A stretch of DNA of 64,000 nucleotides from Maribacter caenipelagi (GTDB lineage Bacteria; Bacteroidota; Bacteroidia; Flavobacteriales; Flavobacteriaceae), in contig NZ_SNZW01000015.1 in assembly GCF_004364175.1 (NCBI RefSeq), positions 1 to 64,000 on the forward strand. Direction: 5' to 3'. The notes beneath the pieces were generated by a model. It was not told the origin of the DNA and did not search any database. It was given only the letters and a program-made list of their open reading frames with translations. The translations under genes and the position numbers were made by a program. Positions 21,850 through 51,860 of the stretch are shown here, in pieces. The first letter of the stretch is position 1, and the number at the start of each line of letters is the position of its first letter.

Positions 21850-21893
21850 GTAACCTATGTTACCTTTTAAATAATCAGAATCGAATAATTTTG
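21850..21893 (+). promoter_or_regulatory. GTAAC-N4-GTTAC operator and promoter of DUF983-crp
   Basis: GTAACCTATGTTAC (21850-21863) and -7 box TAATTTTG (21886-21893), starts 36 nt apart. It precedes the two-gene unit that contains the sulfur-island Crp/Fnr regulator, so it suggests autoregulation. Confidence 0.8.
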
Positions 21894-21910
21894 TATTTAA
21901 ATTCAGAAGT

Positions 21911-22300
21911 ATGCTACCTAAAGGTTCTAAGTTGTACAGTATTATATTTTTAAAATGCCCTAGATGTCATAAAGGCGAATTTTTTGAAGCCAACCCTTAT
22001 AAATTAAGTAACTTTAATAAGGTCAAAGAACGTTGCCCAAAGTGCGATTTAAAATATAGTATTGAACCTAGTTTTTATACGGGATCAATGTACGTTTCTT
22101 ACGGCGTAGGTATAGCCGTGGCAGTTGCTGCGTATGTATTAACATTACTATTCGGGCTTCAACTGTCCATAGGTACTTTGTTTGTTGTTATCGTAACTTC
22201 GCTAGTGTTAACAATGCCATGGATAGCTGCCGTATCAAAATCTATTTGGGCGAATATTTTTTTTAAATTTGATAAAGAAATAGCACAAAAAATTAATTAG
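21911..22300 (+). CDS. DUF983 family zinc-ribbon membrane protein
   Basis: The 129-aa protein has two CxxC pairs (CPRCHKGEFF and CPKCDLKY, residues about 17-20 and 42-45) that look like a zinc ribbon, then two membrane helices (about 58-75 and 80-100). This matches DUF983, of unknown function. It is the first gene of the crp unit, 6 bp before the regulator, under the GTAAC-type promoter. Its role in sulfur metabolism is unknown. Confidence 0.88.
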   Translation: MLPKGSKLYSIIFLKCPRCHKGEFFEANPYKLSNFNKVKERCPKCDLKYSIEPSFYTGSMYVSYGVGIAVAVAAYVLTLLFGLQLSIGTLFVVIVTSLVLTMPWIAAVSKSIWANIFFKFDKEIAQKIN

Positions 22301-22306
22301 CCAAGA

Positions 22307-22939
22307 ATGATTCAAGACTTAAAGGAAGAATACGGAAATATCTTCGAAGAAGAGCTCATTAATGAAATCGTACAGGTAGGTACTTTTAAAGAAGTACCCG
22401 AGGGTTATAAATTCATGGAGATAGGCGACTACATTAGAGGTATGCCATTATTGATATCTGGAGTCATTAAAATTTTAAGAGAAGATGAAGATGGCGATGA
22501 GTTATTACTGTACTATCTAGAAAAAGGTGATACCTGCTCTATGACCATGGCATGTTGTATGGGCGACAAAAAAAGTGAGATCAGGGCCATAGCCGAAACA
22601 GATGCCAAACTTATTATGGTACCTATTCAGAAAATGGAAGAATGGACCGGTAAATATAAATCTTGGAGAAATTTCGTTTTCAATAGTTATCATGTTAGGC
22701 TAAATGAGCTTTTAAGCACTTTAGATAATATCGCTTTTCAAAAGATGGATGAACGCCTAATTGGCTATCTAAAGGAAAAAGCAAGGGTAACTAAAGACAA
22801 TATAATTCATAGTACCCATCAAGATATTGCCTACGACCTGCATAGTTCTAGAGTCGTAATTTCTAGGCTTTTAAAGAAGCTTGAAGAAATGGGCAAAATT
22901 AAACTTCACCGCAATTATTTAGAATTATTAGATTTATAA
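22307..22939 (+). CDS. Crp/Fnr-family regulator of the sulfur island (candidate)
   Basis: The 210-aa protein has a cNMP-like beta-barrel (about 20-115), a dimer helix and a C-terminal HTH (about 168-203, HQDIAYDLHSSRVVISRLLK), the form that binds palindromes like GTAAC-N4-GTTAC. It has no N-terminal Fnr cysteines. Instead Cys77, Cys83 and Cys84 cluster in TCSMTMACCMG in the sensor domain. This suggests a thiol-based sensor, perhaps of persulfide, but that is inference. It lies inside the island, its own operon carries the palindrome, and all 13 palindromes seen are within 30 kb of it. It is the obvious candidate for the binding protein. Confidence 0.85.
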   Translation: MIQDLKEEYGNIFEEELINEIVQVGTFKEVPEGYKFMEIGDYIRGMPLLISGVIKILREDEDGDELLLYYLEKGDTCSMTMACCMGDKKSEIRAIAETDAKLIMVPIQKMEEWTGKYKSWRNFVFNSYHVRLNELLSTLDNIAFQKMDERLIGYLKEKARVTKDNIIHSTHQDIAYDLHSSRVVISRLLKKLEEMGKIKLHRNYLELLDL

Positions 22940-22946
22940 TACCTCT

Positions 22947-22990
22947 GTAACCAATGTTACTGCGAAGGTTTCCACACCGTTCTACTTTTG
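22947..22990 (+). promoter_or_regulatory. GTAAC-N4-GTTAC operator and promoter of the TauE/SafE gene
   Basis: GTAACCAATGTTAC (22947-22960) and TACTTTTG (22983-22990), starts 36 nt apart. The operator begins 7 bp after the crp stop codon. Confidence 0.8.
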
Positions 22991-23008
22991 TGATATCAAA
23001 TACATCAC

Positions 23009-23809
23009 ATGGAAATTTTGCAAATTCTTGGTTATATCAGTGCCTTAGTTATCGGTATTTCATTAGGTCTTATTGGAGGCGGTGGTTCTATATTGGCCGT
23101 ACCTGTTTTAGCCTACCTGTTTTCAATTAATGAAAAAGCTGCAACCGCGTACTCCCTCTTTGTTGTTGGTGCAAGTGCATTGGTCGGTGGTTGGCAACAG
23201 CATCTAAAAGGTTACGTAGATTGGCGTACTGCCATTGTTTTTGGTATACCTGCAATTATTGGTGTTACACTGGTTAGACATTATGTGGTACCTGCAATGC
23301 CCGATGTATTATTTCAAGTTGAACACTTTCAATTTACACGTAGAATGGCAATGTTCGGTCTGTTCGCTGTTTTAATGATACCCGCTGCATATGCTATGCT
23401 TAAAAAAGAAAAAAGTGTTATTAAAGGCGGAAATGTTTCTTATAATTATCCATTAATTTTAATAGAAGGATTATTAGTTGGTAGCATCACCGGATTAATT
23501 GGCGCTGGTGGCGGATTTTTGATTATTCCCGCTTTGGTCATATTGGCGAATGTTGATATGAAAGTTGCCGTGGGTACCTCTTTAATCATAATTGCCATTA
23601 AATCTTTAATGGGTTTCTTTTTAGGCGATGCGATGACCATGGTCATTGATTGGAAGTTTCTTGCCATTTTCACATCACTATCTTTTGTGGGTATTTTTAT
23701 TGGTAGTTACCTCAGCAACTTCATAGATGGTAAAAAGCTCAAGAAAGGTTTCGGCTATTTTATTCTTGTTATGGCTGCCTTTATTTTCTATATGGAATTC
23801 TTCAAATAA
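23009..23809 (+). CDS. TauE/SafE family sulfite/organosulfur exporter-like permease
   Basis: The 266-aa protein has about eight membrane helices and two Gly-rich repeats (GLIGGGGSILAVP near 20 and GLIGAGGGFLIIP in the second half), the internal duplication of TauE/SafE permeases. Members export sulfite, sulfonates or related anions. Its place directly behind the regulator and ahead of two persulfide dioxygenases suggests it exports the sulfite those enzymes make. Confidence 0.9.
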   Translation: MEILQILGYISALVIGISLGLIGGGGSILAVPVLAYLFSINEKAATAYSLFVVGASALVGGWQQHLKGYVDWRTAIVFGIPAIIGVTLVRHYVVPAMPDVLFQVEHFQFTRRMAMFGLFAVLMIPAAYAMLKKEKSVIKGGNVSYNYPLILIEGLLVGSITGLIGAGGGFLIIPALVILANVDMKVAVGTSLIIIAIKSLMGFFLGDAMTMVIDWKFLAIFTSLSFVGIFIGSYLSNFIDGKKLKKGFGYFILVMAAFIFYMEFFK

Positions 23810-23821
23810 AATTTCGCTTGT

Positions 23822-23865
23822 GTAACTAATGTCACTGTACACGTTTCAAAGAGGGGCTAATTTTA
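23822..23865 (+). promoter_or_regulatory. GTAAC-type operator and promoter of the first persulfide dioxygenase
   Basis: GTAACTAATGTCAC (23822-23835) has one mismatch in the right arm. TAATTTTA (23858-23865) lies at the 36-nt position. Because the operator overlaps the upstream alternative start at 23829, the ATG at 23892 is the more likely start. Confidence 0.75.
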
Positions 23866-23891
23866 TGTTATTAATCAAAACATACAACAAC

Positions 23892-25307: not shown

Positions 25308-25328
25308 AATTTTAATATTCAAATTATT

Positions 25329-25470: not shown

Positions 25471-25514
25471 GTAACCTATGTTACTGTGCAGTACCTTTTA
25501 CAAGTGTAATTTTG
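25471..25514 (+). promoter_or_regulatory. GTAAC-N4-GTTAC operator and promoter of persulfide dioxygenase copy 2
   Basis: GTAACCTATGTTAC (25471-25484) and TAATTTTG (25507-25514), starts 36 nt apart. Confidence 0.85.
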
Positions 25515-25536: not shown

Positions 25537-26946
25537 ATGAAAGTAGAACAAATATATACTGGTTGTCTTGCGCAAGGTGCTTACTACATTGAAAGCAATG
25601 GAGAAGTCGCCATTATTGATCCTCTACGAGAAGTACAGCCTTACATAAAAAAAGCTGCGGCAGATAATGCTAAAATCAAATATATTTTTGAAACTCATTT
25701 TCATGCCGATTTTGTTAGTGGTCATGTAACCTTGGCCAAAGAAACTGGTGCTGATATCATATACGGACCTAATGCGAATCCGTCTTTCGAAGCTATTATT
25801 GCTAAAGATAATCAAGAGTTCAAATTAGGTGATATTACCATCACTGCTTTACATACACCTGGTCATACGATGGAAAGTACCACCTATTTATTAAGAGATG
25901 CTTCAGGTAAAGACTATGCTGTTTTTAGTGGCGACACTTTATTTTTAGGTGATGTCGGCAGACCTGATCTTGCTCAGAAAATGGGCGAATTAACAGAGCG
26001 TGACCTTGCCGGATTTTTATTTGACAGTCTACGTGAAAAAATTATGCCTTTAGCAGATGACGTTATCGTTTACCCTGCTCATGGTGCCGGTTCTGCATGT
26101 GGTAAGAATATGATGAAAGAAACGGTAGATACCTTGGGCAACCAAAAGAAAATGAATTATGCCTTACGTTCAGATATGACGAAAGAAGAATTTATTGATG
26201 AAGTAATCGATGGCTTACTACCACCGCCTCAATATTTTCCCTTAAACGTAAAGCTCAATAAAGAAGGTTACGAAGATATAAAAGAGGTATTGGTACGTGG
26301 CACAAGAGCACTATCTTCAAAGGCTTTTGAAGCAGCCGCAAATGAAACGGGCGCGATAGTTTTAGATGTTCGTCATCAAGACGATTTTGCCAAAGGCCAT
26401 ATTCCACGATCCATTTTTATAGGCCTCGATGGTAGTTTTGCCCCATGGGTAGGTGCTTTAATTGCAGATGTAAAACAACCTATTTTATTGGTAACCCCAA
26501 TTGGAATGGAAGAAGAAGCGGTAACTCGATTATCAAGAGTTGGTTTTGATGGTACGCTAGGATATTTAAAAGGCGGTTTCGATGCTTGGAAAAAAGCTGC
26601 AATGGAATATGATACCGTTAGTCAGGTTGATGCAGATGAGCTTAAGAAAGTTATTGAAACCGATCATGTACCTGTATTCGATGTTCGTAAAGAATCTGAA
26701 TACCTTTCTGAACATATAATTGATGCCAAAAACACACCCCTAGATTTCTTAAATGATCATTTAGCCGAGTTCCCAAACAAAAAATCATTCTACGTGCATT
26801 GCGCAGGTGGTTACAGAAGTATGATTGCATCATCTATTTTAAAAAGTAGAGGTATTCATAATCTAATAGATGTAAAAGGCGGATTTAAAGATATTAAAGA
26901 AGCTGGTATACCGGTTACTGAATTTGTTTGTCCTACTACATTATAA
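25537..26946 (+). CDS. persulfide dioxygenase-rhodanese fusion, copy 2
   Basis: The 469-aa protein is a close paralogue of the preceding gene along its whole length, sharing the start MKVEQIYTGCLA and most motifs (THFHADFVSGH, GDVGRPDLAQ). It has the same plan: a dioxygenase domain, a first rhodanese domain lacking the active Cys, and a last one with HCAGGYRS (Cys422). The tandem copies have separate GTAAC-type promoters, so each is controlled on its own. This suggests a duplication that included the regulatory region. Confidence 0.92.
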   Translation: MKVEQIYTGCLAQGAYYIESNGEVAIIDPLREVQPYIKKAAADNAKIKYIFETHFHADFVSGHVTLAKETGADIIYGPNANPSFEAIIAKDNQEFKLGDITITALHTPGHTMESTTYLLRDASGKDYAVFSGDTLFLGDVGRPDLAQKMGELTERDLAGFLFDSLREKIMPLADDVIVYPAHGAGSACGKNMMKETVDTLGNQKKMNYALRSDMTKEEFIDEVIDGLLPPPQYFPLNVKLNKEGYEDIKEVLVRGTRALSSKAFEAAANETGAIVLDVRHQDDFAKGHIPRSIFIGLDGSFAPWVGALIADVKQPILLVTPIGMEEEAVTRLSRVGFDGTLGYLKGGFDAWKKAAMEYDTVSQVDADELKKVIETDHVPVFDVRKESEYLSEHIIDAKNTPLDFLNDHLAEFPNKKSFYVHCAGGYRSMIASSILKSRGIHNLIDVKGGFKDIKEAGIPVTEFVCPTTL

Positions 26947-27035: not shown

Positions 27036-27380
27036 ATGTCATTTTTAAGTACACTCTTTGGTAAAAAAGAAGAAACCGCAGGTAATATTACTATACTGAA
27101 CAAGAATGAATATGCCTCGCAAATCGTAACTAACAATATCAAACCAATTGATGTAAGAACACCGTCAGAATATAATGGCGGTCACATTAAAAACGCTATA
27201 AACGTTGATTTTTTTAACGGTGGGAACTTTAACGCTTACTTTGAAAAAGTAAATAAAGAAAAACCGGTATATGTATATTGTAGATCAGGTGCAAGAAGCC
27301 AAAAAGCAGCTCGTAAACTATTAAAAATGGGCTTTACACAAGTATATGATCTTAAAGGAGGGTATACTTCTTGGAATTAA
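27036..27380 (+). CDS. single-domain rhodanese sulfurtransferase
   Basis: The 114-aa protein is one rhodanese domain with PIDVRTPSEYNGGHIKNAINVD and the active loop CRSGARS (Cys82). It lacks a signal peptide and is cytoplasmic. It would shuttle sulfane sulfur between persulfide carriers. Position behind the two dioxygenases suggests it feeds or relieves them. Confidence 0.92.
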   Translation: MSFLSTLFGKKEETAGNITILNKNEYASQIVTNNIKPIDVRTPSEYNGGHIKNAINVDFFNGGNFNAYFEKVNKEKPVYVYCRSGARSQKAARKLLKMGFTQVYDLKGGYTSWN

Positions 27381-27413: not shown

Positions 27414-27477
27414 GTAGGTTTATCTAGTTATGATGGTTTATTTCAAAGCCAATCAATATATTTTAAATTCCATACTT

Positions 27478-28107
27478 ATGAAAAATATCTTTTTAATGTT
27501 AACGATTATTTTTGCAATTGGTTGTAAAGATTCTCCAAAGGTTAAGCAAGAAGTTCTAGAAAATACCGACAGTACCTCTTTGTCTGAAATAGATACTAAA
27601 ATAAACGATAGCCTACTTTTAGAAAAAGGTAAAATGTATGCCCAAACTACCCAAAAAGTTTTAGGTAAGAATCTTATGCTCAACATTCAAAAAAATGGTC
27701 CATTAGGTGCTGTAGCGTTTTGTAATGAAAAGGCATATCCTCTAACAGATAGTATGGCTATTGTTCATCATGCTAAAATAAAAAGGGTAAGCGATAAGCC
27801 AAGAAATCAAAATAATAAAGCAAGTAAAAAAGAGCTTGAATATATTGAGTTTTTTAAATCAAAAATTAATAACAACGAGTCTTACGAACCTATACTAACG
27901 AATGAGAATGGAGTAACTAATTTCTATTCCCCTATTGTAACCAATACCATGTGCCTAAACTGCCATGGTGTGCCAGAAACAAATATCGACCCAAAGGTTA
28001 CACAACTTTTGATCGATAAATACCCCTATGACGAGGCTATTGGCTATAAAGAAAACGAGGTAAGAGGTATTTGGAGTATACGTTTTAAAGACGAACAAAA
28101 TAAATAA
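27478..28107 (+). CDS. DUF3365 haem-binding lipoprotein
   Basis: I place the start at the ATG 27478, not 27430, because it gives a lipoprotein signal (MKNIFLMLTIIFAIGCKDS, lipobox Cys at 19) and a 209-aa protein. A DUF3365 (Tll0287-like) domain follows with NEKAYPLTD, a SDKPRNQNN segment and a c-type haem motif CLNCH (159-163). It is therefore a one-haem lipoprotein, probably periplasmic or facing the cell surface. Family members are suspected haem sensors or redox proteins. Role here unknown. Confidence 0.85.
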   Translation: MKNIFLMLTIIFAIGCKDSPKVKQEVLENTDSTSLSEIDTKINDSLLLEKGKMYAQTTQKVLGKNLMLNIQKNGPLGAVAFCNEKAYPLTDSMAIVHHAKIKRVSDKPRNQNNKASKKELEYIEFFKSKINNNESYEPILTNENGVTNFYSPIVTNTMCLNCHGVPETNIDPKVTQLLIDKYPYDEAIGYKENEVRGIWSIRFKDEQNK

Positions 28108-28392: not shown

Positions 28393-28430
28393 AAAGAAGA
28401 AGTAATTATGCATTGTATTACTTCTTCTTT
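28393..28430. terminator. bidirectional terminator overlapping a stop codon
   Basis: AAAGAAGAAGTAAT (28393-28406) and ATTACTTCTTCTTT (28417-28430) form a perfect 14-bp stem with a 10-nt loop. The right arm contains the stop and last Lys codons of the minus-strand gene, so coding and terminator share sequence. Confidence 0.85.
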
Positions 28431-29293
28431 GTTTTAAACCCATGAGTAATCTGCCCTAAAAAATCTTGTGGCATATTCTCATCTCCTGGGTAACCTAATC
28501 TTACATCACCACTATCTTCTGGTATGTAATTGGTCTTAAATAGATAATCCCACAGACTTAAACTAATTCCGAAATTTACACCGTATGTTCCTTCTGGCAA
28601 ATCATAGGCATGATGGTACAAATGCATTACCGGGTTGTTTAAAATATACTTCAAAGGCCCCCAGGTAATTTTTATGTTAGAATGGTTTAGATGCCCTATT
28701 GCTATGGCAACAAAATGTACGATGTAGGCTTGTTCTGGCTCAAAACCTCCTAAAATCATTACGCCGAAGGTCTTCAACGGTTTATACAAAATATTCTCCA
28801 TCCAATGATAACGTAAATGCGCTGCAAAGCCCATTTCTTTTACACTATGGTGTACTTTATGAAAATTCCAAAGAAAGGCGTATTTGTGTAATAATGTATG
28901 TGTAAACCATTGCACAAAATCTAATACGATGAAAAATAATAACAGTTGACCCCACATTGGCCAACCAGATATATCTATAATAGCCAAACTATTTGCTTTT
29001 ATACCAATATCAATAAAAAACACTTGTAGTAATTTATAAATACCACTTATGGCAATGGCAAATAGAAAGAAATTGAAGAACATGTAAAAGCCGTCTAACC
29101 AAAAGTCTTTTCTAAATACCCCTTGTTGTCTTCTCCAAGGAAAAACAATTTCCAAGAACCAAACTATAAGCGATATAGAAATTAAGCCCCAAAAGTAATT
29201 TAAATACCAGGGCACTTGAAAAATGATTGATTTCCATGTCCAACTTAATGTGCCTGTTATCGCATTTAAAAACGCATCTATATATGCTTCCAT
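28418..29293 (-). CDS. sterol desaturase / fatty acid hydroxylase family membrane enzyme
   Basis: The 291-aa integral membrane protein has four or more helices and the di-iron His clusters of the family: HTLLH (132-136), HKVHHS (145-150) and HLYHH (224-228). Members hydroxylate or desaturate lipids or carotenoids using O2. The substrate cannot be told. It shares the symmetric GTAAC-type promoter (29311-29384) with a DUF2892 gene on the other strand, so a lipid-modifying enzyme seems to belong to the sulfur regulon. Confidence 0.88.
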   Translation of the reverse strand: MEAYIDAFLNAITGTLSWTWKSIIFQVPWYLNYFWGLISISLIVWFLEIVFPWRRQQGVFRKDFWLDGFYMFFNFFLFAIAISGIYKLLQVFFIDIGIKANSLAIIDISGWPMWGQLLLFFIVLDFVQWFTHTLLHKYAFLWNFHKVHHSVKEMGFAAHLRYHWMENILYKPLKTFGVMILGGFEPEQAYIVHFVAIAIGHLNHSNIKITWGPLKYILNNPVMHLYHHAYDLPEGTYGVNFGISLSLWDYLFKTNYIPEDSGDVRLGYPGDENMPQDFLGQITHGFKTKKK

Positions 29294-29310: not shown

Positions 29311-29384
29311 CAAAAATAATGTAATAATTATGGCCTTGCTGTAACTAAAGTTACATTAAAAACCACGGTTGTCCATTAGTTTTG
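29311..29384. promoter_or_regulatory. divergent GTAAC-N4-GTTAC promoter
   Basis: GTAACTAAAGTTAC (29341-29354) is central. Minus strand: TATTTTTG (29318 to 29311) for the desaturase gene. Plus strand: TAGTTTTG (29377-29384) for the DUF2892 gene. Both are full TAnnTTTG boxes exactly 36 nt from the matching edge of the palindrome. Confidence 0.85.
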
Positions 29385-29519: not shown

Positions 29520-29723
29520 ATGAAAAAGAATATGGGAACCACAGATAAATTCATAAGATTCATAATTGCCGCAGCACTTTTGATTGCATTTTTTACAGGT
29601 GCAGTTACTGGAATTTTAGGTTATGTGGCATTAGCAATAGCAGCCATTTTCATCTTAACTTCATTTGTTAGTTTTTGCCCTCTATATACTTTATTCGGCG
29701 CTAATACGTGTAAAATAAAATAG
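29520..29723 (+). CDS. DUF2892 (YgaP-type) small membrane protein
   Basis: The 67-aa protein opens MKKNMGTTDKFIRFIIAAAL and has two membrane helices separated by GYVALAIAAI, then SFCPLYTLFGANTC with two Cys. This is the DUF2892 fold, the same unit that forms the membrane part of rhodanese YgaP. Family members often lie in sulfur-metabolism loci. It is transcribed from the divergent GTAAC-type promoter, 136 bp downstream of its -7 box. Confidence 0.85.
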   Translation: MKKNMGTTDKFIRFIIAAALLIAFFTGAVTGILGYVALAIAAIFILTSFVSFCPLYTLFGANTCKIK

Positions 29724-29791: not shown

Positions 29792-29835
29792 GTAACATTT
29801 GTTACATTATATTTATTTTGCATCATTTATATTTA
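29792..29835 (+). promoter_or_regulatory. GTAAC-N4-GTTAC operator and promoter of SQR 1
   Basis: GTAACATTTGTTAC (29792-29805) and TATATTTA (29828-29835, last base A instead of G), starts 36 nt apart. Confidence 0.78.
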
Positions 29836-29860: not shown

Positions 29861-31171
29861 ATGAAATCACATCATCAGGTATTGATTATTGGGGGAGGTA
29901 CTGCAGGTATCATGGTAGCAGCCCAACTTCTTACCCAAAAGAGAGCAAAAGACGTTGCAATTATCGAACCCGCAGATACTCATTATTACCAACCTGCATG
30001 GACCCTGGTAGGTGCTGGTACATATGACTTTGACAAAACGGCTCGACCAATGTCATCGGTTATACCTAAAAATGCTACTTGGATAAAAGATAAGGCTACT
30101 GGTTTCGACCCCGAAAACAATATCGTACACACAGCATCTAAAGGAGATATCACGTACGATTATTTAGTAGTTGCACCAGGTCTTGCATATGATTTCAGTT
30201 TAGTACCTGGCTTAGGCAAAGCTATAGATAAAGGTGTTGTATGCAGTAATTATACAAACCCTAAACATACTTGGGATGTTATTAAAAATTTCAAAGGCGG
30301 TACCGCACTTTTTACGCAACCAACAACCCCTATTAAATGTGGTGGAGCACCCCAAAAAATAATGTACTTGGCAGAAAGTCATTTTAGAAAAAGTGGAATC
30401 CGTAAAAAAACCGATGTCATTTTCGCTACTGGTGGTACTGTTATTTTTGGTGTAAAGAAAATAGCCAAAACCTTAATGGAGGTAGTTGACCGAAAGGATA
30501 TTAACCTTAGGTTTCATCACAAACTTGTGGCTGTTGATGGTGATAAACAAATTGCCTGGTATGAAATGGGTCAAGAAATTACCGCTGGTGGTTGTGTGGT
30601 TATCTCTAGCAACAAGGTCGATGACTTAAAATTAGACGAAAAATTTCAATATAATTATAAGGACGTAAAAGTTAGCGTTGATGGCAACCGTTATGGAATT
30701 CATTATGATATGATGCATACCGCTCCACCTTCTGTAGCTCCTAAATTTGTAAAGGATTCAACATTAGTTAACGCTGCGGGTTGGTTGGATGTTAACCATC
30801 AAACTATGCAACATAATAGCTATGCCAATATTTTTGGCTTAGGAGATGTCGCTGCCTTACCTACTGCTAAAACAGGAGCCGCAATCCGTAAACAGGTGCC
30901 TATCGTAGTTGACAACTTAAACCTTTTAATTAATAGTCATAAAATGGGAACTAAATCTTATAACGGATATTCTTCTTGCCCATTGGTAACGGACTATGGA
31001 AAAATGGTGTTAGCGGAATTTGATTATGACAATAATTTTACTCCGGATCCTAAATTGAAAAGAATGCTCATAAGCGATTCTTCTAAAGAACATTGGAGAT
31101 TATGGATGCTTAAAAAATATGGTCTACCCTACTTATATTGGAATAAAATGATGAAAGGTAAAGATGTTTAA
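29861..31171 (+). CDS. sqr: sulfide:quinone oxidoreductase, type II (SQOR-like)
   Basis: The 436-aa flavoprotein starts with the FAD motif GGGTAG (11-16). The redox cysteines of the human-SQOR-like type appear to be Cys160 in PIKCGGAPQK and Cys373 in SSCPLVTDYG; Cys128 is extra. It oxidises H2S to a persulfide and passes the electrons to quinone at the membrane. In SQOR-type systems the persulfide goes to a low-molecular thiol and then to a persulfide dioxygenase and rhodanese, all of which are encoded nearby. It has its own GTAAC-type promoter and terminator. Confidence 0.92.
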   Translation: MKSHHQVLIIGGGTAGIMVAAQLLTQKRAKDVAIIEPADTHYYQPAWTLVGAGTYDFDKTARPMSSVIPKNATWIKDKATGFDPENNIVHTASKGDITYDYLVVAPGLAYDFSLVPGLGKAIDKGVVCSNYTNPKHTWDVIKNFKGGTALFTQPTTPIKCGGAPQKIMYLAESHFRKSGIRKKTDVIFATGGTVIFGVKKIAKTLMEVVDRKDINLRFHHKLVAVDGDKQIAWYEMGQEITAGGCVVISSNKVDDLKLDEKFQYNYKDVKVSVDGNRYGIHYDMMHTAPPSVAPKFVKDSTLVNAAGWLDVNHQTMQHNSYANIFGLGDVAALPTAKTGAAIRKQVPIVVDNLNLLINSHKMGTKSYNGYSSCPLVTDYGKMVLAEFDYDNNFTPDPKLKRMLISDSSKEHWRLWMLKKYGLPYLYWNKMMKGKDV

Positions 31172-33622: not shown

Positions 33623-33696
33623 CGAATCTATAATTTAACCTTCATTATGGAAGTAACCAAGGTTACAGTTACGTTAAAAACTTTAATTTACTTTTA
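33623..33696. promoter_or_regulatory. divergent GTAAC-N4-GTTAC promoter for tsdA-like and dsrE-like units
   Basis: GTAACCAAGGTTAC (33653-33666). Minus strand: TAGATTCG (33630 to 33623, one mismatch) towards the TsdA-like gene. Plus strand: TACTTTTA (33689-33696, one mismatch) towards the DsrE gene. Both start 36 nt from the matching palindrome edge. Confidence 0.75.
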
Positions 33697-37246: not shown

Positions 37247-37277
37247 CTTTAAAATTTTTAATTAATTGAAATACAGA

Positions 37278-37303
37278 CCAATACCTTAAAGTTTAGGTAT
37301 TGG
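37278..37303 (-). promoter_or_regulatory. intercistronic hairpin before the TonB receptor
   Basis: CCAATACCT (37278-37286) pairs with AGGTATTGG (37295-37303), extended by AAA/TTT with one bulge. It lies in the 83-bp gap between the small Cys gene and the receptor. It could be an attenuator or an mRNA processing or stability element. Confidence 0.45.
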
Positions 37304-37329
37304 ATGAATTAAAACGGAAATAAAAATTT

Positions 37330-37711: not shown

Positions 37712-37755
37712 CAAAATTAAATGCCCTAACTGGTTTAAAATGTGACTAAAGTCAC
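37712..37755 (-). promoter_or_regulatory. GTAAC-type operator and promoter of the Cys protein / TonB receptor unit
   Basis: GTGACTAAAGTCAC (37742-37755), a symmetric variant with GTGAC arms. On the minus strand TAATTTTG (37719 to 37712) starts 36 nt from the edge. Confidence 0.8.
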
Positions 37756-37858: not shown

Positions 37859-37902
37859 GTAACCAGGGTTACATTGTAAACCTTTTTCATAATTTAATTT
37901 TA
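37859..37902 (+). promoter_or_regulatory. GTAAC-N4-GTTAC operator and promoter of the peroxiredoxin
   Basis: GTAACCAGGGTTAC (37859-37872) and TAATTTTA (37895-37902), starts 36 nt apart. Confidence 0.8.
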
Positions 37903-40163: not shown

Positions 40164-40207
40164 GTAACCAATGTTACCCATCAATTAGTAGAAATTAAAT
40201 AATTTCG
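40164..40207 (+). promoter_or_regulatory. GTAAC-N4-GTTAC operator and promoter of cydAB
   Basis: GTAACCAATGTTAC (40164-40177) and TAATTTCG (40200-40207, one mismatch), starts 36 nt apart. Confidence 0.78.
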
Positions 40208-41579: not shown

Positions 41580-41588
41580 TTGACAAAT

Positions 41589-42858: not shown

Positions 42859-43134
42859 AATTTATGTATTTATAAACCTTGGGTAAAACTATAAATACCT
42901 CCCAAAATAAAATATGATATCAATCAACTAACCCATATTTATTTACTAATAAAGCATTATAACTACCCAAAATAAAACAAACATATTATACATAATATCA
43001 GCTCTTGCAAAAATTATTAGCTATTTACTAAAAGTACTCTTACATCTAGTGCAATAAGCCTTTTTATGTAACAAAAGTTGCTGTAAGACTTACTTAAAAA
43101 AAAGATCTTAGCTTATAATTTAAAGCTCAATATA
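42859..43134. other. intergenic stretch before SQR 2
   Basis: An AT-rich stretch with no coding signal. It contains the degenerate GTAAC-type site at 43068-43081. Otherwise I see nothing in it. Confidence 0.6.
43068..43081 (+). promoter_or_regulatory. degenerate GTAAC-type operator upstream of SQR 2
   Basis: GTAACAAAAGTTGC has one mismatch in the right arm and lies 53 bp before the SQR 2 start. No TAnnTTTG box is found at the 36-nt position, so this is the exception to the pattern and may be weak or inactive. Confidence 0.5.
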
Positions 43135-44589
43135 ATGTCGAAAATAGTAATATTAGGTGCTGGTATTTCAGGTCATGTAGCTGCATCTCATCTTCGCAGA
43201 AAATTGTCAAAACAACATGAGGTTTTGGTTGTTTCTCCAAATAGTAATTACCAATGGATACCTTCTAATATTTGGGTAGGTATAGGTCGTATGAAATCTG
43301 AAGAAATACTATTTCCTTTGGCTCCACTATACAAGAAAAAAAATATTGGTTATAAGCAGGCTCTCGTCACTACCTTTCACCCAGAGGGTAATACTGAATC
43401 AACAAAACCATATGTAAATATCAAATACGTTAATGGCGAATTAAAAGGTAAGACAGAAAAAGTAACTTATGACTATCTTATTAATGCCACAGGACCCAAA
43501 TTAGCTTTTGATATGACCCAAGGTCTAAACCCTGGTACCAACAAAGCTTATTCGGTTTGTACCTATAGCCATGCCGAACATGCATGGCATGCCTTGAACG
43601 ACTTGATTCAGCAAATGAAACAGGGCAAAAAAGCCAAAATTTTAATTGGAACCGGACACGCAAAATCTACTTGCCAAGGTGCAGCTTTCGAGTACATTTT
43701 AAATGTTGAGCAAGAGTTAAGAAGACATAACGTACGTGATAAGGCTGAAGTCATTTGGATCGCCAACGAATATAAATTAGGTGATTTTGGTATGGATGGT
43801 ATGCTTCTTAGTTACGGCAATAATATTATGAAGTCTAGCGAAATGGTAGAGATGGTTTTTGAAGACCGTGGTATAAAATGGATAATTGGTGCCGGCGTTA
43901 ATAAAATTGAAGATGGCATTGCACATTATGAAACGTTAGATGGTGAGTATAAATCTGAAACGTACGATTTTGCCATGTTAATACCTGCGTTCTCTGGGCA
44001 TGGTTTCAAAGCCTTTGATAAAAACAATACAGAAATTACAGAAAAGCTCTTTAAAGGTTTCATGCTTGTTGATGCAGATTACACACCTAAACCCTATGAA
44101 GAATGGAGTGTTCAAGACTGGCCCGAAACCTATCAAAATCCTTCATACAAAAACATATTTGCGCCCGGTATAGCCTTTGCACCACCGCATGCAATTTCAA
44201 AACCAAGAGTAAATAAAAATGGAACAGCTATATCTCCTGCCCCACCTCGTACAGGAATGCCATCTGGTATAACAGCAAAATTAGTGGCAGATAATATTAT
44301 TGATATCATTAATGGTAAAAAAGATGTACACCATAAAGGTTCTTTAGGTAATATGGGTGCTGCTTGTATTGCATCTGCTGGTTATGGCATGACAAAAGGA
44401 AGTGGTGTTAGTATAACCACCTACCCTATTGTGCCAGATTACAACAAGTATCCTGATACCCAGGGAAGACAATTAGGCAAGACTTTTGGAGAAATCGGTT
44501 TAGCGGGTCACTGGTTGAAATTGGCACTTCATTATGCATTCATCTATAAAGCAAAAATGAAACCTTTTTGGTGGCTAATACCTGAATAA
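43135..44589 (+). CDS. second sulfide:quinone oxidoreductase-like flavoprotein
   Basis: The 484-aa protein begins with the FAD motif ILGAGISG and has Cys142 (SVCTYSHAEHAW), Cys180 (STCQGAAFEY) and Cys411 (AACIASAGYGMT), placed like the redox cysteines of SQR/FccB flavoproteins. It is longer than SQR 1 and of another SQR type. Sulfide oxidation with quinone as acceptor is the likely role, at the membrane through the hydrophobic C-terminus (HYAFIYKAKMKPFWWLIPE). A 46-aa partner gene follows. Confidence 0.85.
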   Translation: MSKIVILGAGISGHVAASHLRRKLSKQHEVLVVSPNSNYQWIPSNIWVGIGRMKSEEILFPLAPLYKKKNIGYKQALVTTFHPEGNTESTKPYVNIKYVNGELKGKTEKVTYDYLINATGPKLAFDMTQGLNPGTNKAYSVCTYSHAEHAWHALNDLIQQMKQGKKAKILIGTGHAKSTCQGAAFEYILNVEQELRRHNVRDKAEVIWIANEYKLGDFGMDGMLLSYGNNIMKSSEMVEMVFEDRGIKWIIGAGVNKIEDGIAHYETLDGEYKSETYDFAMLIPAFSGHGFKAFDKNNTEITEKLFKGFMLVDADYTPKPYEEWSVQDWPETYQNPSYKNIFAPGIAFAPPHAISKPRVNKNGTAISPAPPRTGMPSGITAKLVADNIIDIINGKKDVHHKGSLGNMGAACIASAGYGMTKGSGVSITTYPIVPDYNKYPDTQGRQLGKTFGEIGLAGHWLKLALHYAFIYKAKMKPFWWLIPE

Positions 44590-45734: not shown

Positions 45735-45778
45735 GTAACATTTGTTACTGTGTAACATATTTTACCACACTAATTTTG
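45735..45778 (+). promoter_or_regulatory. GTAAC-N4-GTTAC operator and promoter of the RND operon
   Basis: GTAACATTTGTTAC (45735-45748) and TAATTTTG (45771-45778), starts 36 nt apart, 10 bp before the TolC-like start. Confidence 0.85.
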
Positions 45779-45788: not shown

Positions 45789-47102
45789 ATGAATACCATG
45801 AAATATAAATTAGTATTGATAGTGTTGTTCGTCTTTTATTCTGGCCTATCACAAGAAGTAAAATCTATTACGAAAGATGAAGTACTTACTAAAGTAAAAG
45901 AAAATAATAACACACTGAAAATGGCACAGCAAGATGTATTGTCCGCCAAGGGTGATTTCAATCAGACCAATGCTATTTTATTACCCAATATTAGCGTCTC
46001 CCATACAGGTATAGCTACCACCAACCCATTAATGGCATTTGGGTCTAAACTGAACCAAGAAATTTTAACTGCTGCAGATTTTAACCCAGATTTGTTAAAC
46101 GACCCAAGCCAAATAGAAGATTATGCCACTCGTGTAGAAGTGCAACAACCACTAATAAATTTCGATGGTATTTATCAAAGAAAAGCTGCAAAAGCTAAAC
46201 TGACAGCCACTGAACTGCAGTCTGATAGAACAGAAGACTACCTAGCTCTTGAAGTTGAAAAAGCTTATATGCAATTACAGCTAGCATACAAAACGGTAAC
46301 GGTTTTAGAGAAAGCCCAAGAAACTGCTTTAGAAAATAAACGTATTGCCGACAATAGTTATAAGCAAGGTTATTTACAAAAATCTGATGTCCTTTCAGTA
46401 GAAGTCAGAGTTACAGAAATTAACAACCAGTTACAATATGCTAAGAGTAATGTTCTTAATGCCAGTAACTATTTATCGGTATTAATGAATACCGATGAAA
46501 GTGAAATTTTAATACCTTCTGATTCACTTTCCATTACCACGTTTAATACTACAACTACCGTAGACTTATCTGAAAACAGAAAAGATATATTGGCTATGAA
46601 TTCTGCTACCGAAGCATACAGACAAATGCATAAAGCAGACCAAATGGCTTTCTTACCTCGCTTAAATGCTTTCGGTACTTATGAGCTACATGACGATGAT
46701 ATTTTTCAAGGGCAGGCTCAAGGGTATTTATTTGGTGCAGAATTAAAATGGAATCTTTTTGAAGGTAGTAAGCGTTTTGGAAAATCTCAAAAAAGCAAGG
46801 CTGAATATGACAAATCTAAACTACAATTAGAGCAGTATAAGTCTGAAAGTCAATTAGAACTCAATAAGGCTAAAAGAGGTTTTAAAGATGCTAAAAATAA
46901 ATTAAAGCTTACAAAACTGGCACTAGAACAATCTGAAGAATCATTGCGTATACGCACCAACAGGTTCAAACAGGGTTTAGAAAAAACTACAGATTTGCTA
47001 ATGTCCGAAACGCAATATTCTCAAAAGCAATTAGAATATTACGCAACAATTTTTCAACATAATTACGCCTTGGCGTATGTACAGTTTTTAACAAAAGAAT
47101 AA
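45789..47102 (+). CDS. TolC-family outer-membrane efflux protein
   Basis: The 437-aa protein has a signal peptide (about 1-21, ending YSGLSQ) and two repeats of long helices with the TolC/OEP pattern (KAYMQLQLAYKTV, NSYKQGYLQKSDVL, TNRFKQGLEKTTDLL). It forms the outer-membrane channel of the tripartite pump whose adaptor and permease follow. An alternative ATG lies three codons downstream. It is directly behind a GTAAC-type promoter, so the pump belongs to the sulfur regulon. Confidence 0.93.
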   Translation: MNTMKYKLVLIVLFVFYSGLSQEVKSITKDEVLTKVKENNNTLKMAQQDVLSAKGDFNQTNAILLPNISVSHTGIATTNPLMAFGSKLNQEILTAADFNPDLLNDPSQIEDYATRVEVQQPLINFDGIYQRKAAKAKLTATELQSDRTEDYLALEVEKAYMQLQLAYKTVTVLEKAQETALENKRIADNSYKQGYLQKSDVLSVEVRVTEINNQLQYAKSNVLNASNYLSVLMNTDESEILIPSDSLSITTFNTTTTVDLSENRKDILAMNSATEAYRQMHKADQMAFLPRLNAFGTYELHDDDIFQGQAQGYLFGAELKWNLFEGSKRFGKSQKSKAEYDKSKLQLEQYKSESQLELNKAKRGFKDAKNKLKLTKLALEQSEESLRIRTNRFKQGLEKTTDLLMSETQYSQKQLEYYATIFQHNYALAYVQFLTKE

Positions 47103-47134
47103 AATTCTACAATCACTAAATACCATTCTTAAAG

Positions 47135-48217
47135 ATGAAAAATAAAAAATATATAATCACAGCTATTTTAGGCGCAACAATCTTGCTCACTAGTTGTGGC
47201 AGCGATGATAAAAAAGCAGTAGTTGATAATTCACCTGCTATTGCCGTTCAAACAAAAACAGTTTCCGAAGATAGTAGTAGACCTTTTTTAACTGTAAGCG
47301 GTAAAATTGAAGCTGCCAAGAGTGCAAATATTAGCACTAGAATGATGGGATACGTAGATAAAATATACGTTGGTGTTGGTGATAAGGTCAATAAAGGTCA
47401 ATTATTAATGAGCGTCAACAATGCAGATGTTTCTGCACAATTAGCACAAGTTAATGCAAGTATTACCGAAGCTGAAGCTGCTTACACCAATGCTGAAAAA
47501 GACTTTAACCGGTTCACTGCATTATTTCAACAAAATAGTGCCTCACAGAAAGAGCTAGATGATATTACCGCCAATTATAATATGGCAAAAGCCAGGTTAG
47601 AATCGGCAAAACAGATGAAAAACGGTGTCAACGCTCAAATGGGTTATGCAAATATTCGTGCTCCCTTTAGCGGTGTAGTAACCAATAAATTCATTAATGC
47701 AGGTGATATGGCTAACCCAGGTATGCCTTTAATGGAAGTAGAATCTCCTGGTACCTACCAAGTACTTGCTATGGTGCCCGAATCTGAAATTCTTGCTGTT
47801 AAAAATGATACTGAAGTTAGCGTACAAATCAAAGTATTGAATAAAAATATAAAAGGAAAAGTAGCCGAAGTAAGTACATCATCAAAAAATACAGGTGGTC
47901 AATATTTGGTTAAGGTAATTTTAGATAAAACAGATGTACAAATACTATCTGGTATGTACGCAACCGTACAATTTCCTATTACAAGAAAAACAACAAGTTC
48001 TGCTATAATGATTCCTGAAGAAGCTATTGTTACTAAAGGTCAGTTATCTGGAGTTTACACCGTAAGCCAAAGTAATACTGCCTTATTACGCTGGTTACGA
48101 CTAGGGAGAACTTTTGGTGATCAAATTGAAGTATTATCGGGACTTTCAGCAGATGAGCAATACATTGTTTCTGCGGAAGGAAAATTATTTAACGGAGCAA
48201 AAATCTCCAATCAATAA
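47135..48217 (+). CDS. RND efflux periplasmic adaptor (lipoprotein)
   Basis: The 360-aa protein has a lipobox (ILLTSCGS), a biotinyl-lipoyl-like domain split by an alpha-hairpin (about 90-170) and beta-barrel regions (FNAGD-like FINAGDMANPGMPL). It links the permease to the TolC channel. It starts 32 bp after the TolC gene. A 124-bp spacer with hairpins separates it from the permease. Confidence 0.93.
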   Translation: MKNKKYIITAILGATILLTSCGSDDKKAVVDNSPAIAVQTKTVSEDSSRPFLTVSGKIEAAKSANISTRMMGYVDKIYVGVGDKVNKGQLLMSVNNADVSAQLAQVNASITEAEAAYTNAEKDFNRFTALFQQNSASQKELDDITANYNMAKARLESAKQMKNGVNAQMGYANIRAPFSGVVTNKFINAGDMANPGMPLMEVESPGTYQVLAMVPESEILAVKNDTEVSVQIKVLNKNIKGKVAEVSTSSKNTGGQYLVKVILDKTDVQILSGMYATVQFPITRKTTSSAIMIPEEAIVTKGQLSGVYTVSQSNTALLRWLRLGRTFGDQIEVLSGLSADEQYIVSAEGKLFNGAKISNQ

Positions 48218-48249
48218 ACGAGTCTGGGTTAGGGATTGAAGCGGTTACC

Positions 48250-48318
48250 CCACAGGCACTTTTTGTGCCGAGGAGTATGAGCGTAAAGCCCGACCACCTG
48301 CTAACCGGCAGGTGGTAA
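48250..48318. repeat. REP-like double-hairpin element
   Basis: Two perfect hairpins: GGCAC-TTTTT-GTGCC (48255-48269) and CCACCTGC-TAACCG-GCAGGTGG (48294-48315). The element is clearly more GC-rich than its surroundings, which is the look of a REP-like mobile repeat. It sits between adaptor and permease genes of one operon and may affect mRNA or stoichiometry. Confidence 0.6.
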
Positions 48319-48341
48319 CACACAAATAAAATATAGAAATA

Positions 48342-51300
48342 ATGAAGGAAGGTTTAGCAGGTAAAATTGCCAAATTATTTATAGGCAGTAAGTTAACGGT
48401 ACTTTTAATGATCGTATTCATGGTCATTGGGGTGTACAGTTCGTTTTTGATTCCAAGGGAAGAAGAACCACAGATAGATGTGCCTATGGCAGACATTTTT
48501 GTAGGTTACCCAGGTGCAAGTCCTGCTGAAGTAGAATCGCGGGTCATCAAACCTTTAGAGAAGTTAATTTCTAACATTAAAGGCGTTGAATATGTGTATT
48601 CTACATCAATGAAAGAACAAGGTATGGTCATCGTACAATTTTATGTAGGCGAAGATATTGAGCGTTCTTTTGTGAAGTTATACAATGAAATCAACAAGCA
48701 TATGGATATTATGCCGCAGGGCGTAACCTTCCCTTTGGTGAAAACCCGTGCTATTGATGATGTACCTATGTTGGGTCTTACCTTATGGAGCGAAAACTAT
48801 GATGGTTACCAGTTAAGCCAAATGGCACAAGAACTGGAAAATGAGATTAAAAAGGTCAACGATGTTGCTATTACCCATAAAATAGGAAATCAAGACCGTC
48901 AATTACGTGTTGTCTTAGATAAAGATAAATTGGCCGCTAGCGGATTGGATTTCTTATCAGTTTCTGAGATGATTAAGGCTAATAATGCCCAATTGAGTTC
49001 TGGTAGTTTTGATAAAAATGATACGGAGTTCTTAGTAAATACAGGAAATTTTTTAGCCTCTGTTACCGATGTTGAAAATCTTGTTGTCGGTGTTCAACAA
49101 AATCAGCCCATTTATTTAAAGCAAATTGCAAATATTATCGACGGACCAGAAATTCCTCAAAGTTATGTTTCCTTGGGATTTGGACAGGCAAGTGATAAAG
49201 TAGCAGATTACAAATCTGAATACCCTGCAGTGACTATCTCTGTAGCAAAAAGAAAAGGTGCCGATGCAATGAAAATTGCCGACATCGTTATTGAAAAAGT
49301 TGATCATTTACGTACCACCTTAATTCCTGATGATGTACATGTAGAAATCACTCGAAATTATGGTGAAACGGCTTCTCATAAAGTGTCTGAACTTTTATTA
49401 CACTTAATTGGTTCTATTATAGCGGTAACGCTTGTAGTAATGCTAGCTATGGGCTGGCGTGGTGGCTTGGTGGTCTTCTTATCTGTACCCATAACTTTTG
49501 CCTTAACATTGTTGAGCTACTATATGCTTGACTACACCTTGAACAGAATTACCCTTTTTGCTTTGGTATTCGTTACTGGTATTGTGGTAGATGATTCCAT
49601 TATTATAGCCGAGAATATGCACCGGCATTTTAAAATGAAACGCCTACCATTTAAACAGGCGGCACTTTATGCCATTAATGAAGTAGGTAACCCAACTATT
49701 TTAGCAACGTTTACCGTAATTGCATCTGTATTACCCATGGCGTTCGTATCTGGACTTATGGGACCATATATGGCACCTATGCCTATTGGGGCTTCTATTG
49801 CAATGATCCTTTCACTTTTTGTTGCATTGACCATTACACCATATTTAGGCTATATTTTCTTAAGAGAAAAAGACAAAAAAGGAGAAGCTGAGAAAGAGCA
49901 GAAACCTTTAGAAAACACCTATATCTACAAGGTGTACAACAGATTTGAACGTCCGCTTATTGAGAACAAGAGTAAACGCTGGTTGTTTTTAGGTTTGACT
50001 TTTCTTTTATTAATGGGGTCAATGGTATTGTTCTTTACTAAATCTGTTGCTGTGAAAATGCTACCATTTGATAACAAAAACGAGTTTCAAGTGGTCATTG
50101 ATATGCCAGAAGGCACAACACTTGAGCGCACAGGTGTAGTTGCTCAAGAAATTGCTCAATATTTATCTACCAGACCAGAGGTTGTAAATTATCAGAACTA
50201 TGTAGGTACCTCTGCCCCTATAACCTTTAACGGTTTGGTACGTCATTACGATTTACGTGGCGGTAGTAATATGGCCGATATTCAAGTAAACCTTGTGGAT
50301 AAAGGTGAACGCTCTGCCCAAAGTCATGATATTGCAAGTTTACTGCGGCCAGATATTCAAAAAATAGCGGCAAAGTATAACGCTAATGTTAAATTGGTAG
50401 AAGTTCCGCCAGGACCTCCTGTACTTTCTACAATTGTAGCAGAAGTATATGGACCTGATTATGAGGAACAGATTAAAATTGCGAATAGTGTACAAGATAT
50501 CTTGAAAAACACTGATGATGTAGTTGATATCGATTGGCTTGTAGAGGCTGACCAAACCGAATATAAATTCGAAATCAATAAAGAAAAAGCAATGCTTTAC
50601 GGTGTGGCACCACAGCAGATCGCCTATACCATGAATATGGCTTTATCAAATAGAGCAATTACAAATTTATATGATGAAAACGCAATTGACCAAGTTGGTT
50701 TGGTACTGGCATTAGATGAAAAAGAAAAGTCGACTATTACAGATATTTCACAATTGAAGGTTACCTCTAAGCAGGGAAACATGGTGCCTATTGCCGATTT
50801 AGTAGATATTAAAGAAACTATAAGCGCAAAGAGCATATACCGTAAGAACCAAAAGCGTGTAGTATATGTAATGGCAGATATGGCAGGTGAATTAGAGAGT
50901 CCGGCCTACGCCATATTAGGCATGGAAGAAAAGTTGAAAGAAATTGCTTTGCCTAAAGGATATCAAATTACTGAGATGTATTTAGGTCAGCCTGATTTCG
51001 AAGATGACTATACCGTTAAATGGGATGGTGAATGGCAAATAACGCTTGAAGTTTTCCGAGATTTAGGAATTGCCTTTCTTGGTGCCATTATCTTGATTTA
51101 TATATTGATAGTTGGCTGGTTTCAAAATTTTAAAGCTCCAATTGTAATGATGGTAGCCATACCATTATCATTGATCGGTATTGTTTTAGGTCACTGGATT
51201 ATGGGTGCATTCTTTACCGCAACCTCTTTTATTGGTATGATCGCGCTTGCAGGTATTATGGTACGAAATTCAGTATTGTTGATAGATTTCATTAATCTAC

Positions 51301-51563
51301 GTTTGGCTGAAGGTGTACCAATTAAACAAGCTGCCATTGAAGCTGGTGCGGTACGTACAACCCCTATTCTGTTAACTGCAGGCACTGTAGTAATTGGAGC
51401 CTTCGTTATCTTATTCGACCCCATTTTTCAAGGTCTGGCTATCTCTTTAATGGGCGGTACTATTGTATCTACTGTGCTTACTTTACTGGTTGTTCCATTG
51501 GTTTATTATATGATAGAAAAGAAAAATTATCCAGAAACTGAAAGTTATGAGATAACTGAATAA
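48342..51563 (+). CDS. RND-family efflux permease
   Basis: The 1073-aa inner-membrane protein has the RND layout: a helix at the N-terminus, a large periplasmic loop, six helices with the proton-relay pair in GIVVDDSIIIAENMHR, a second loop and helices. It resembles the HAE-type of AcrB-like pumps, driven by the proton gradient. The substrate is unknown. The GTAAC-type promoter at 45.7 kb suggests export of a sulfur compound or of a metal, but this is inference. Confidence 0.94.
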   Translation: MKEGLAGKIAKLFIGSKLTVLLMIVFMVIGVYSSFLIPREEEPQIDVPMADIFVGYPGASPAEVESRVIKPLEKLISNIKGVEYVYSTSMKEQGMVIVQFYVGEDIERSFVKLYNEINKHMDIMPQGVTFPLVKTRAIDDVPMLGLTLWSENYDGYQLSQMAQELENEIKKVNDVAITHKIGNQDRQLRVVLDKDKLAASGLDFLSVSEMIKANNAQLSSGSFDKNDTEFLVNTGNFLASVTDVENLVVGVQQNQPIYLKQIANIIDGPEIPQSYVSLGFGQASDKVADYKSEYPAVTISVAKRKGADAMKIADIVIEKVDHLRTTLIPDDVHVEITRNYGETASHKVSELLLHLIGSIIAVTLVVMLAMGWRGGLVVFLSVPITFALTLLSYYMLDYTLNRITLFALVFVTGIVVDDSIIIAENMHRHFKMKRLPFKQAALYAINEVGNPTILATFTVIASVLPMAFVSGLMGPYMAPMPIGASIAMILSLFVALTITPYLGYIFLREKDKKGEAEKEQKPLENTYIYKVYNRFERPLIENKSKRWLFLGLTFLLLMGSMVLFFTKSVAVKMLPFDNKNEFQVVIDMPEGTTLERTGVVAQEIAQYLSTRPEVVNYQNYVGTSAPITFNGLVRHYDLRGGSNMADIQVNLVDKGERSAQSHDIASLLRPDIQKIAAKYNANVKLVEVPPGPPVLSTIVAEVYGPDYEEQIKIANSVQDILKNTDDVVDIDWLVEADQTEYKFEINKEKAMLYGVAPQQIAYTMNMALSNRAITNLYDENAIDQVGLVLALDEKEKSTITDISQLKVTSKQGNMVPIADLVDIKETISAKSIYRKNQKRVVYVMADMAGELESPAYAILGMEEKLKEIALPKGYQITEMYLGQPDFEDDYTVKWDGEWQITLEVFRDLGIAFLGAIILIYILIVGWFQNFKAPIVMMVAIPLSLIGIVLGHWIMGAFFTATSFIGMIALAGIMVRNSVLLIDFINLRLAEGVPIKQAAIEAGAVRTTPILLTAGTVVIGAFVILFDPIFQGLAISLMGGTIVSTVLTLLVVPLVYYMIEKKNYPETESYEITE

Positions 51564-51576
51564 ATACTGCTATAAT

Positions 51577-51601
51577 CAACAGTACTATTTTGGTGCTGTT
51601 G
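51577..51601 (+). terminator. hairpin after the RND permease
   Basis: CAACAGTAC (51577-51585) pairs with GTGCTGTTG (51593-51601) with one G-T pair. A weak terminator candidate. Confidence 0.5.
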
Positions 51602-51633
51602 AAAATTATTAATCTCAATTAAAAAAAACAAAC

Positions 51634-51819
51634 ATGTTAAATACATACTTTAGAGTTATCGTAGGTACAATGGTTTTACTGAGCGTTGTACTAACAGCAT
51701 ATGTAAATTTAAACTGGCTCTGGCTTACAGTATTCATAGGTGTAAATCTCATACAGTCGGCTTTTACGAAATGGTGCTTATTAGAAACTATTCTTCAAAA
51801 ACTAGGCGTGAAAAAATAA
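51634..51819 (+). CDS. DUF2892 (YgaP-type) small membrane protein
   Basis: The 61-aa protein has two membrane helices (MVLLSVVLTAYVNLNWLWL and FIGVNLIQSAF) and KWCLLETILQKLG, the classical DUF2892 end with one Cys. It lies between the pump operon and the YeeE pair. Family members are frequent in sulfur loci, and this is the second one in the window. No GTAAC-type site directly precedes it. Confidence 0.85.
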   Translation: MLNTYFRVIVGTMVLLSVVLTAYVNLNWLWLTVFIGVNLIQSAFTKWCLLETILQKLGVKK

Positions 51820-51846
51820 TAGATTTACCGTTAATTAAAATCTTAT

Positions 51847-51860
51847 GTAACAAAAGTTAC
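51847..51860 (+). promoter_or_regulatory. GTAAC-N4-GTTAC operator upstream of the YeeE pair
   Basis: GTAACAAAAGTTAC is perfect. The -7 position 36 nt on (51883-51890) reads TTCCTTTA, a poor box. The gene begins 58 bp after the operator. Confidence 0.7.

Follow-up and report, generated by a model that had tools for sequence, protein, structure and literature searches.

Why does one short palindrome stand before nearly every transcription unit of a 30-kb sulfur-gene island, and which protein would read it? The question is raised by the first 64,000 nucleotides of contig NZ_SNZW01000015.1 of Maribacter caenipelagi (assembly GCF_004364175.1), the stretch analysed here and called the window, in which an initial annotation had listed thirteen GTAAC-N4-GTTAC palindromes and proposed that they define a sulfur regulon. 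Our analysis indicates that these palindromes are very probably the operators of a regulon for sulfide and persulfide detoxification and oxidation, activated by the Crp/Fnr-family protein encoded at 22307-22939. The regulon and the activator geometry of its promoters are strongly supported; the sites, their spacing, their conservation, the target content and the co-occurrence with the regulator were all computed.

All thirteen site coordinates in that annotation proved correct, and ten of the sites match the palindrome exactly; the other three are imperfect, with one mismatch each at 23822 and 43068 and two at 37742 (GTGACTAAAGTCAC), whose arms are still palindromic. The ten exact copies all fall inside 21850-51860 and, as had been stated, none occurs in the window beyond 21.8-51.9 kb; 100 dinucleotide shuffles of the window gave a mean of 0.06 exact copies and never more than 1. 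A scan allowing one mismatch returned 20 matches against 1.78 expected, eight of them absent from the earlier list. As we interpret the gene map, each of the 15 transcription units from 21.9 to 52.9 kb has a site, which bears out the statement that almost every unit begins with one.

The sites stand at a fixed distance from promoters. We paired each site in the window with the genes it faces, which gives 15 promoter directions (the sites at 29341 and 33653 drive divergent pairs), and found that the Bacteroidetes -7 box (TAnnTTTG, at most one mismatch) begins precisely 22 bases beyond the site in 13 of them, whereas every other offset between 0 and 51 scores 0 to 2 of the 15. The two exceptions, 43068 and 51847, carry the box at 22 nucleotides with two mismatches. 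This fixed 22-base spacing is new relative to the initial annotation; of 279 oriented segments from the window and 80 ortholog loci, 176 have TAnnTTT at offset 22, and no other offset exceeds 9. Since the flavobacterial sigma-A -7 box is reported to span -12 to -5 (PMC9723704), this spacing places the site at -48 to -35, with its centre at -41.5. The end of the site and a T-G that commonly follows it occupy the bases where a -33 box would lie. A centre at -41.5 is the class II activator position of Crp and FNR, and a palindromic operator near -41.5 or -61.5 is what is expected of the Crp/Fnr family, the centre here being placed by the -7 box spacing. From this arrangement we infer activation rather than repression.

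Across the whole genome (4.28 Mb in 20 contigs, 99.99% complete) the exact palindrome occurs at 15 places, ten of them within the island, compared with 12 places for the reversed control pattern. One of the five places outside the island, C3:449013 (locus L003), has the promoter geometry, its -7 box carrying one mismatch, and precedes a Dps-like gene (named by eye); a second fatty-acid-hydroxylase-like gene lies divergent to this Dps-like gene. The remaining four were rejected as regulon members, as they overlap open reading frames (ORFs) or ORF 5' ends (one of these ORFs being weak) and have no -7 box at 22 nucleotides. A genome scan for the composite of palindrome and -7 box at up to two mismatches gave 18 matches against 17 for the reversed control, and we therefore claim no weaker members outside the island.

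The sites are kept across genera and into other orders, the opposite of the lack of conservation in relatives that the initial annotation had said would speak against its proposal. In the best 80 of 582 loci retrieved with orthologs of the regulator (1.51 Mb; retrieval patterns contained Cys77 or SRVV), the exact palindrome occurs 230 times, with at least one copy in 76 loci; permuted half-site palindromes reached 12 copies at best (median of 60, 1), and nine other spacer lengths gave 0-4. With gene starts in relatives taken from longest-ORF calling, and a site counted as lying at a gene start when that start falls between -130 and +250 bp of it, 221 exact sites are at a start, 1 is inside a gene and 8 are elsewhere, compared with 38, 46 and 8 of the 92 permuted-control sites. 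An exact site stands near the start of TauE in 34/40 cases, of the persulfide dioxygenase (PDO) gene PDO2 in 37/47, DUF983 in 14/20, sulfide:quinone oxidoreductase (SQR) in 13/17, peroxiredoxin in 9/12, YeeE1 in 18/28 and the TolC-like gene in 4/4. Rates are lower for fatty acid hydroxylase (11/23), CydA (5/13), PDO1 (7/24), rhodanese (11/49) and the regulator (17/84); genes of these families, including rhodanese and the regulator, may be operon-internal. Downstream operon genes have none (YeeE2 0/26, CydB 0/10, HlyD 0/8, AcrB-like 0/9), and among genes unlike any in the window 52 of 861 have an exact site near their start. These last include a SulP permease cluster in 8 loci, all with a -7 box, and a cluster of sulfite-oxidase-like molybdoenzymes in 9 loci, 4 with a -7 box at the recorded site (one member of each cluster was scanned with Pfam).

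Searches blind to gene content were made with the same composite of palindrome and -7 box. Among 196 genomes of the order it matched at 65 places, spread over 25 genomes, and the reversed control at 5; all 25 carry a homolog of the regulator (E 1e-30), and none of the 102 genomes without a homolog matches. We inspected 30 loci (32 sites) of the 65 places, one of them in the organism's own genome, and 27 of the 32 sites precede genes matching regulon genes of the window, so that the tie between motif and sulfur genes put forward in the initial annotation holds when related genomes are scanned. The TolC-like pump gene follows such a site eight times and SQR three times; because of the former count (8/32), the RND pump looks like a core member of the regulon. 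Of the other five sites, two stand before SulP-like genes and one each before a thioredoxin-like gene, Dps (in the organism's own genome) and an unknown gene, the first three kinds being named by eye. In locus L228 of genome G537 (6679-13920), a rhodanese and a regulator homolog come after an RND pump that has a site.

When 395 genomes of the phylum were searched, 36 contained the composite, with 0 for the reversed control among the matches listed; 23 belong to the same order, 12 to other orders of the class and 1 to another class. All 13 genomes from outside the order were fetched, and 8 have regulon families at their sites. One of them, from another order (G433), holds a similar island with TauE, PDO-like genes, peroxiredoxin, rhodanese, Tll0287, CydAB and SQR, together with a TonB receptor and its 125-residue partner, a YeeE pair, OprD and the regulator. 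That the sites behave as one regulon is supported by their conservation across genera and orders, their position at gene starts, the exact 22-base spacing and the sulfur genes behind them in relatives.

The candidate regulator lies among its own targets, as the initial annotation had noted: an exact site at 21850-21863, with the -7 box TAATTTTG 22 nucleotides on, heads an operon of a DUF983 protein (21911-22300, plus strand; PF06170) and the 210-residue Crp/Fnr-family protein (22307-22939, plus strand). The latter carries the domains of the superfamily (PF00027, 31.5 bits, cut-off 27.5; PF13545, 32.9 bits, cut-off 27) and does not reach the cut-off of the NCBIfam equivalog for cAMP-CRP (44.7 vs 266 bits). 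It has no N-terminal Fe-S ligand cysteines of the FNR kind, its sole cysteines being residues 77, 83 and 84, which are invariant in all 85 sequences compared (the window, the 80 loci and four from other orders). Its six closest named relatives among the matches listed are from Maribacter (92-99% identity), and it is the only match in its own genome to its own sequence at E 0.001. In its recognition helix, SSRVVISR, Arg stands at the counterparts of Crp 180 and 185, and Val183 aligns with Crp 181 by reference to the Crp helix; across the 85 sequences both Arg residues are kept, and the Val is found in 84, with Glu in one. Sites cluster at loci with Val183, 73 of 79 having one within 6.5 kb, versus none within 13 kb of the 16 weaker homologs with SRE (Glu183). 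These 16 come from 20 weaker-homolog loci; of the four outside the count, only L252 (Val183) has a site, and L249 (TRE), L247 and L248 (both ARVV) lack one. We infer from this that the protein binds the sites, and its identification as their regulator is well supported.

Several observations pull the other way. The ortholog loci are related to each other, so that counts over them are not independent events; the 102 genomes without a homolog include many very small ones; 6 of the 27 family matches at inspected sites are weak rhodanese-domain matches of 31-43 bits; and in 5 of the 13 genomes outside the order no site clearly precedes sulfur genes. Two loci with Glu183, L081 and L040 (G014), for which an altered specificity is expected, still have sites nearby, and the weak Val183 homologs L247 and L248 have none in 13 kb. 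The invariance of the cysteines is partly built in, since the retrieval patterns contained Cys77 or SRVV, and only Cys83-84 are free of this bias. In an alignment (A1) assembled without patterns, comprising the window and 25 of 29 relative loci (L030, L034, L043 and L044 were left out for a stop inside or a position near a contig end), Cys77 is invariant and 4 of the 26 members lack one or both of Cys83-84.

The cysteines suggest sulfane-sulfur sensing, and we lean towards persulfide or polysulfide sulfur, reacting with Cys77, 83 and 84, as the signal. The same activator and regulon could instead respond to redox state, oxygen, thiosulfate, sulfite or a bound nucleotide, a less probable alternative but one with real weight: the regulator has a cyclic nucleotide monophosphate (cNMP)-binding domain, and the four A1 members just mentioned fit it. 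The largely sulfur-related gene content across orders, the retention of the regulator's only cysteines in the 85 sequences and the lack of FNR-type N-terminal cluster cysteines weigh against this alternative.

It is very unlikely that the protein is an HcpR2-type regulator of nitric-oxide or nitrosative stress with the sulfur genes as a lineage-specific extension. The operator itself favours such an origin, as the same palindrome was published in 2005 as the HcpR2 consensus, GTAACnnnnGTTAC (Rodionov 2005, PMC1274295), for another member of the Crp/Fnr family; the regulator thus cannot be named from the motif alone. Nitrosative stress could also account for cytochrome bd and peroxiredoxin. In the 2005 study, however, the HcpR2 proteins that go with this motif follow hcp and in most genomes carry Pro at Crp position 181, where Val stands here, and the predicted regulons mostly consist of hcp only, in contrast to the large sulfur regulon of the island (PMC1274295). 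We found no match to hcp (Prismane, PF03063) in the genome at E 0.001. Within the phylum (118 genomes), 30 hcp loci were fetched with about 1.5 kb on either flank; none has an exact site and three hold one-mismatch copies, and the one Crp protein found beside hcp scores only 18 bits against the ortholog profile. Membership of HcpR2, despite the identical motif, was rejected on the helix residue, the lack of hcp and this distant hcp-linked protein. Judged by sequence, the regulator would use an operator of HcpR2 type without the other defining features of HcpR2.

Recognition of the sites by some other protein, whether a Crp/Fnr paralog or not, is similarly improbable. The genome has 13 cNMP-domain matches including the regulator, one of the others lying inside the window at 7669-8358, but the R-V-x-x-x-R helix (SRVVISR) occurs in none of nine aligned paralogs (three longer multi-domain ones stand outside the alignment), and sites cluster at orthologs of the 22307-22939 protein as described above. 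The second Crp/Fnr-type protein, at 7669-8358, differs in its recognition helix and carries cysteines close to its N-terminus. The sulfide regulators CstR, BigR and SqrR are repressors, yet there is only the slightest chance that the present one is too, with a site at -48 to -35 that replaces the -33 box and does not lie over the -7 box or the start.

Other known systems share parts of this arrangement. SqrR, BigR and YgaV of the ArsR family likewise control sulfide and persulfide oxidation genes in response to sulfide or polysulfide, but they have a different fold and are repressors; CstR of Staphylococcus (CsoR family) is a dithiol persulfide sensor controlling a sulfurtransferase operon, but is an all-helical repressor and not a Crp/Fnr protein. 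FisR is a persulfide-responsive regulator and an activator of sqr-pdo genes; it is a sigma-54 enhancer-binding protein and not a class II activator at sigma-A promoters. The best PDB match of the regulator, the Crp/Fnr structure 3dv8, has cysteines aligned to Cys77 and Cys83, but Glu at position 181, from which another DNA specificity would be expected. In a 2022 review of persulfide regulators, "Fnr" is absent and "Crp" appears only in reference titles (PMC9774590). The statement in the initial annotation that no such regulon is known stands insofar as we found no published description, in a narrow search in which the slash term "Crp/Fnr" was unusable, so that this absence is weakly supported; it does not hold for the motif, known since 2005 from HcpR2 (PMC1274295). 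A limited literature search likewise found no published regulator of flavobacterial sulfide genes.

The island beyond the regulator operon is described here with gene names from Pfam, NCBIfam and PDB searches, which uphold the content given initially (SQR, PDOs, TsdA, DsrE, transporters, peroxiredoxin, cytochrome bd and an RND pump); features lie on the plus strand, and sites are exact with a -7 box found by scan, unless stated. A site at 22947-22960 precedes a TauE/SafE-family sulfite exporter (23009-23809), and one at 23822-23835 (one mismatch) the MBL-rhodanese, persulfide-dioxygenase-like PDO1. This gene most likely starts at 23892 (to 25307) and not at 23829, because the ATG at 23829 is inside the operator and upstream of the inferred transcription start; the -7 box and an N-terminus resembling that of the 25537 gene favour the same start. 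The site at 25471-25484 serves the PDO2 operon, where the similar PDO2 (25537-26946) is followed by a single-domain rhodanese (27036-27380) and a Tll0287-like protein (27430-28107). ETHE1 and BpPRF are among the PDB matches of two MBL-rhodanese proteins, two of the three having been compared with the PDB.

The bidirectional site at 29341-29354, with -7 boxes on both strands at 22 nucleotides, lies between a fatty acid hydroxylase family gene (28418-29293, minus strand) and the gene for a 67-residue YgaP-like transmembrane protein (29520-29723; PF11127), which is absent from the initial annotation and falls under the plus-strand promoter of this site. A site at 29792-29805 precedes SQR of the mitochondrial type (29861-31171; E 6e-104). 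The bidirectional site at 33653-33666 faces, on the minus strand, a TsdA-like thiosulfate dehydrogenase cytochrome c (32555-33592) and an OprD-like porin (31215-32549) and, on the plus strand, a DsrE-like protein (33779-34306) and a methyltransferase-domain protein with weak thiopurine/TehB similarity (34317-34910). On the minus strand, the site at 37742-37755 (GTGAC-N4-GTCAC; -7 box TAATTTTG) precedes a 125-residue protein matching no Pfam or NCBIfam family (37330-37707) and a TonB-dependent receptor (34949-37246). The receptor and its partner behind a site (34949-37707) also occur in another order (L217, 6248-8801).

Farther on, the site at 37859-37872 serves the operon of a peroxiredoxin with a 1-Cys-type C-terminal domain (37936-38601), followed by the third MBL-rhodanese protein (38667-40007), and that at 40164-40177 serves cytochrome bd oxidase subunits I and II (40224-42626). 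The site at 43068-43081 (one mismatch; box with two) precedes a second SQR-like flavoprotein (43135-44589), and the one at 45735-45748 precedes the tripartite RND efflux pump (TolC-like, HlyD-like and AcrB-like; 45789-51563). A one-mismatch copy of the site lies at 45752-45765, downstream of the 45735 site and ahead of the RND operon's -7 box. The last site, 51847-51860 (box with two mismatches), precedes a two-gene YeeE/YedE (Sulf_transp) transporter (51919-52894) with weak, below-cut-off similarity to TsuA. Outside the island, 17949-19403 encodes a protein with DUF6851/vanadium-chloroperoxidase-like/PAP2 domains.

We propose that sulfane sulfur would modify the cysteines of the regulator and render its dimer active, and that the dimer would bind the palindrome centred at -41.5 and recruit RNA polymerase, by class II activation, to sigma-A promoters with a TAnnTTTG -7 box and without a -33 box. 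The regulator would thereby raise its own operon together with two SQR-type flavoproteins, three persulfide-dioxygenase-like proteins, rhodanese, TsdA and DsrE, and also sulfur and sulfite transporters, peroxiredoxin, cytochrome bd and the RND pump. Sulfide would be oxidised by SQR, persulfide by PDO and rhodanese, and thiosulfate by TsdA, with TauE and YeeE moving sulfite, thiosulfate or other sulfur compounds. Cytochrome bd, which in E. coli is sulfide-tolerant, would keep respiration going, and the product set would also protect against peroxide. The wider proposal, of a class of Crp/Fnr-fold sulfane-sulfur sensors with Cys-X5-Cys-Cys in the effector domain that activate, not derepress, sulfide oxidation through one promoter architecture in several orders, we regard as evenly balanced.

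Flavobacteria rank among the important heterotrophs of the sea. How heterotrophs oxidise sulfide is a topic of present interest (PMC12345210). In this marine flavobacterium, and in relatives from other orders of the class, sulfide, persulfide and thiosulfate genes appear to be activated together through one Crp/Fnr protein, and the pattern of site and -7 box is distinct enough that probable members of the regulon can be listed from the group's genomes. Through the same pattern an RND pump, a TonB receptor and YgaP-like and Dps-like proteins are tied to sulfide stress; we know of no description linking a dedicated RND pump or TonB receptor of such a regulon to sulfide. The analysis thus offers a simple, testable model in which three cysteines and one operator would govern the response.

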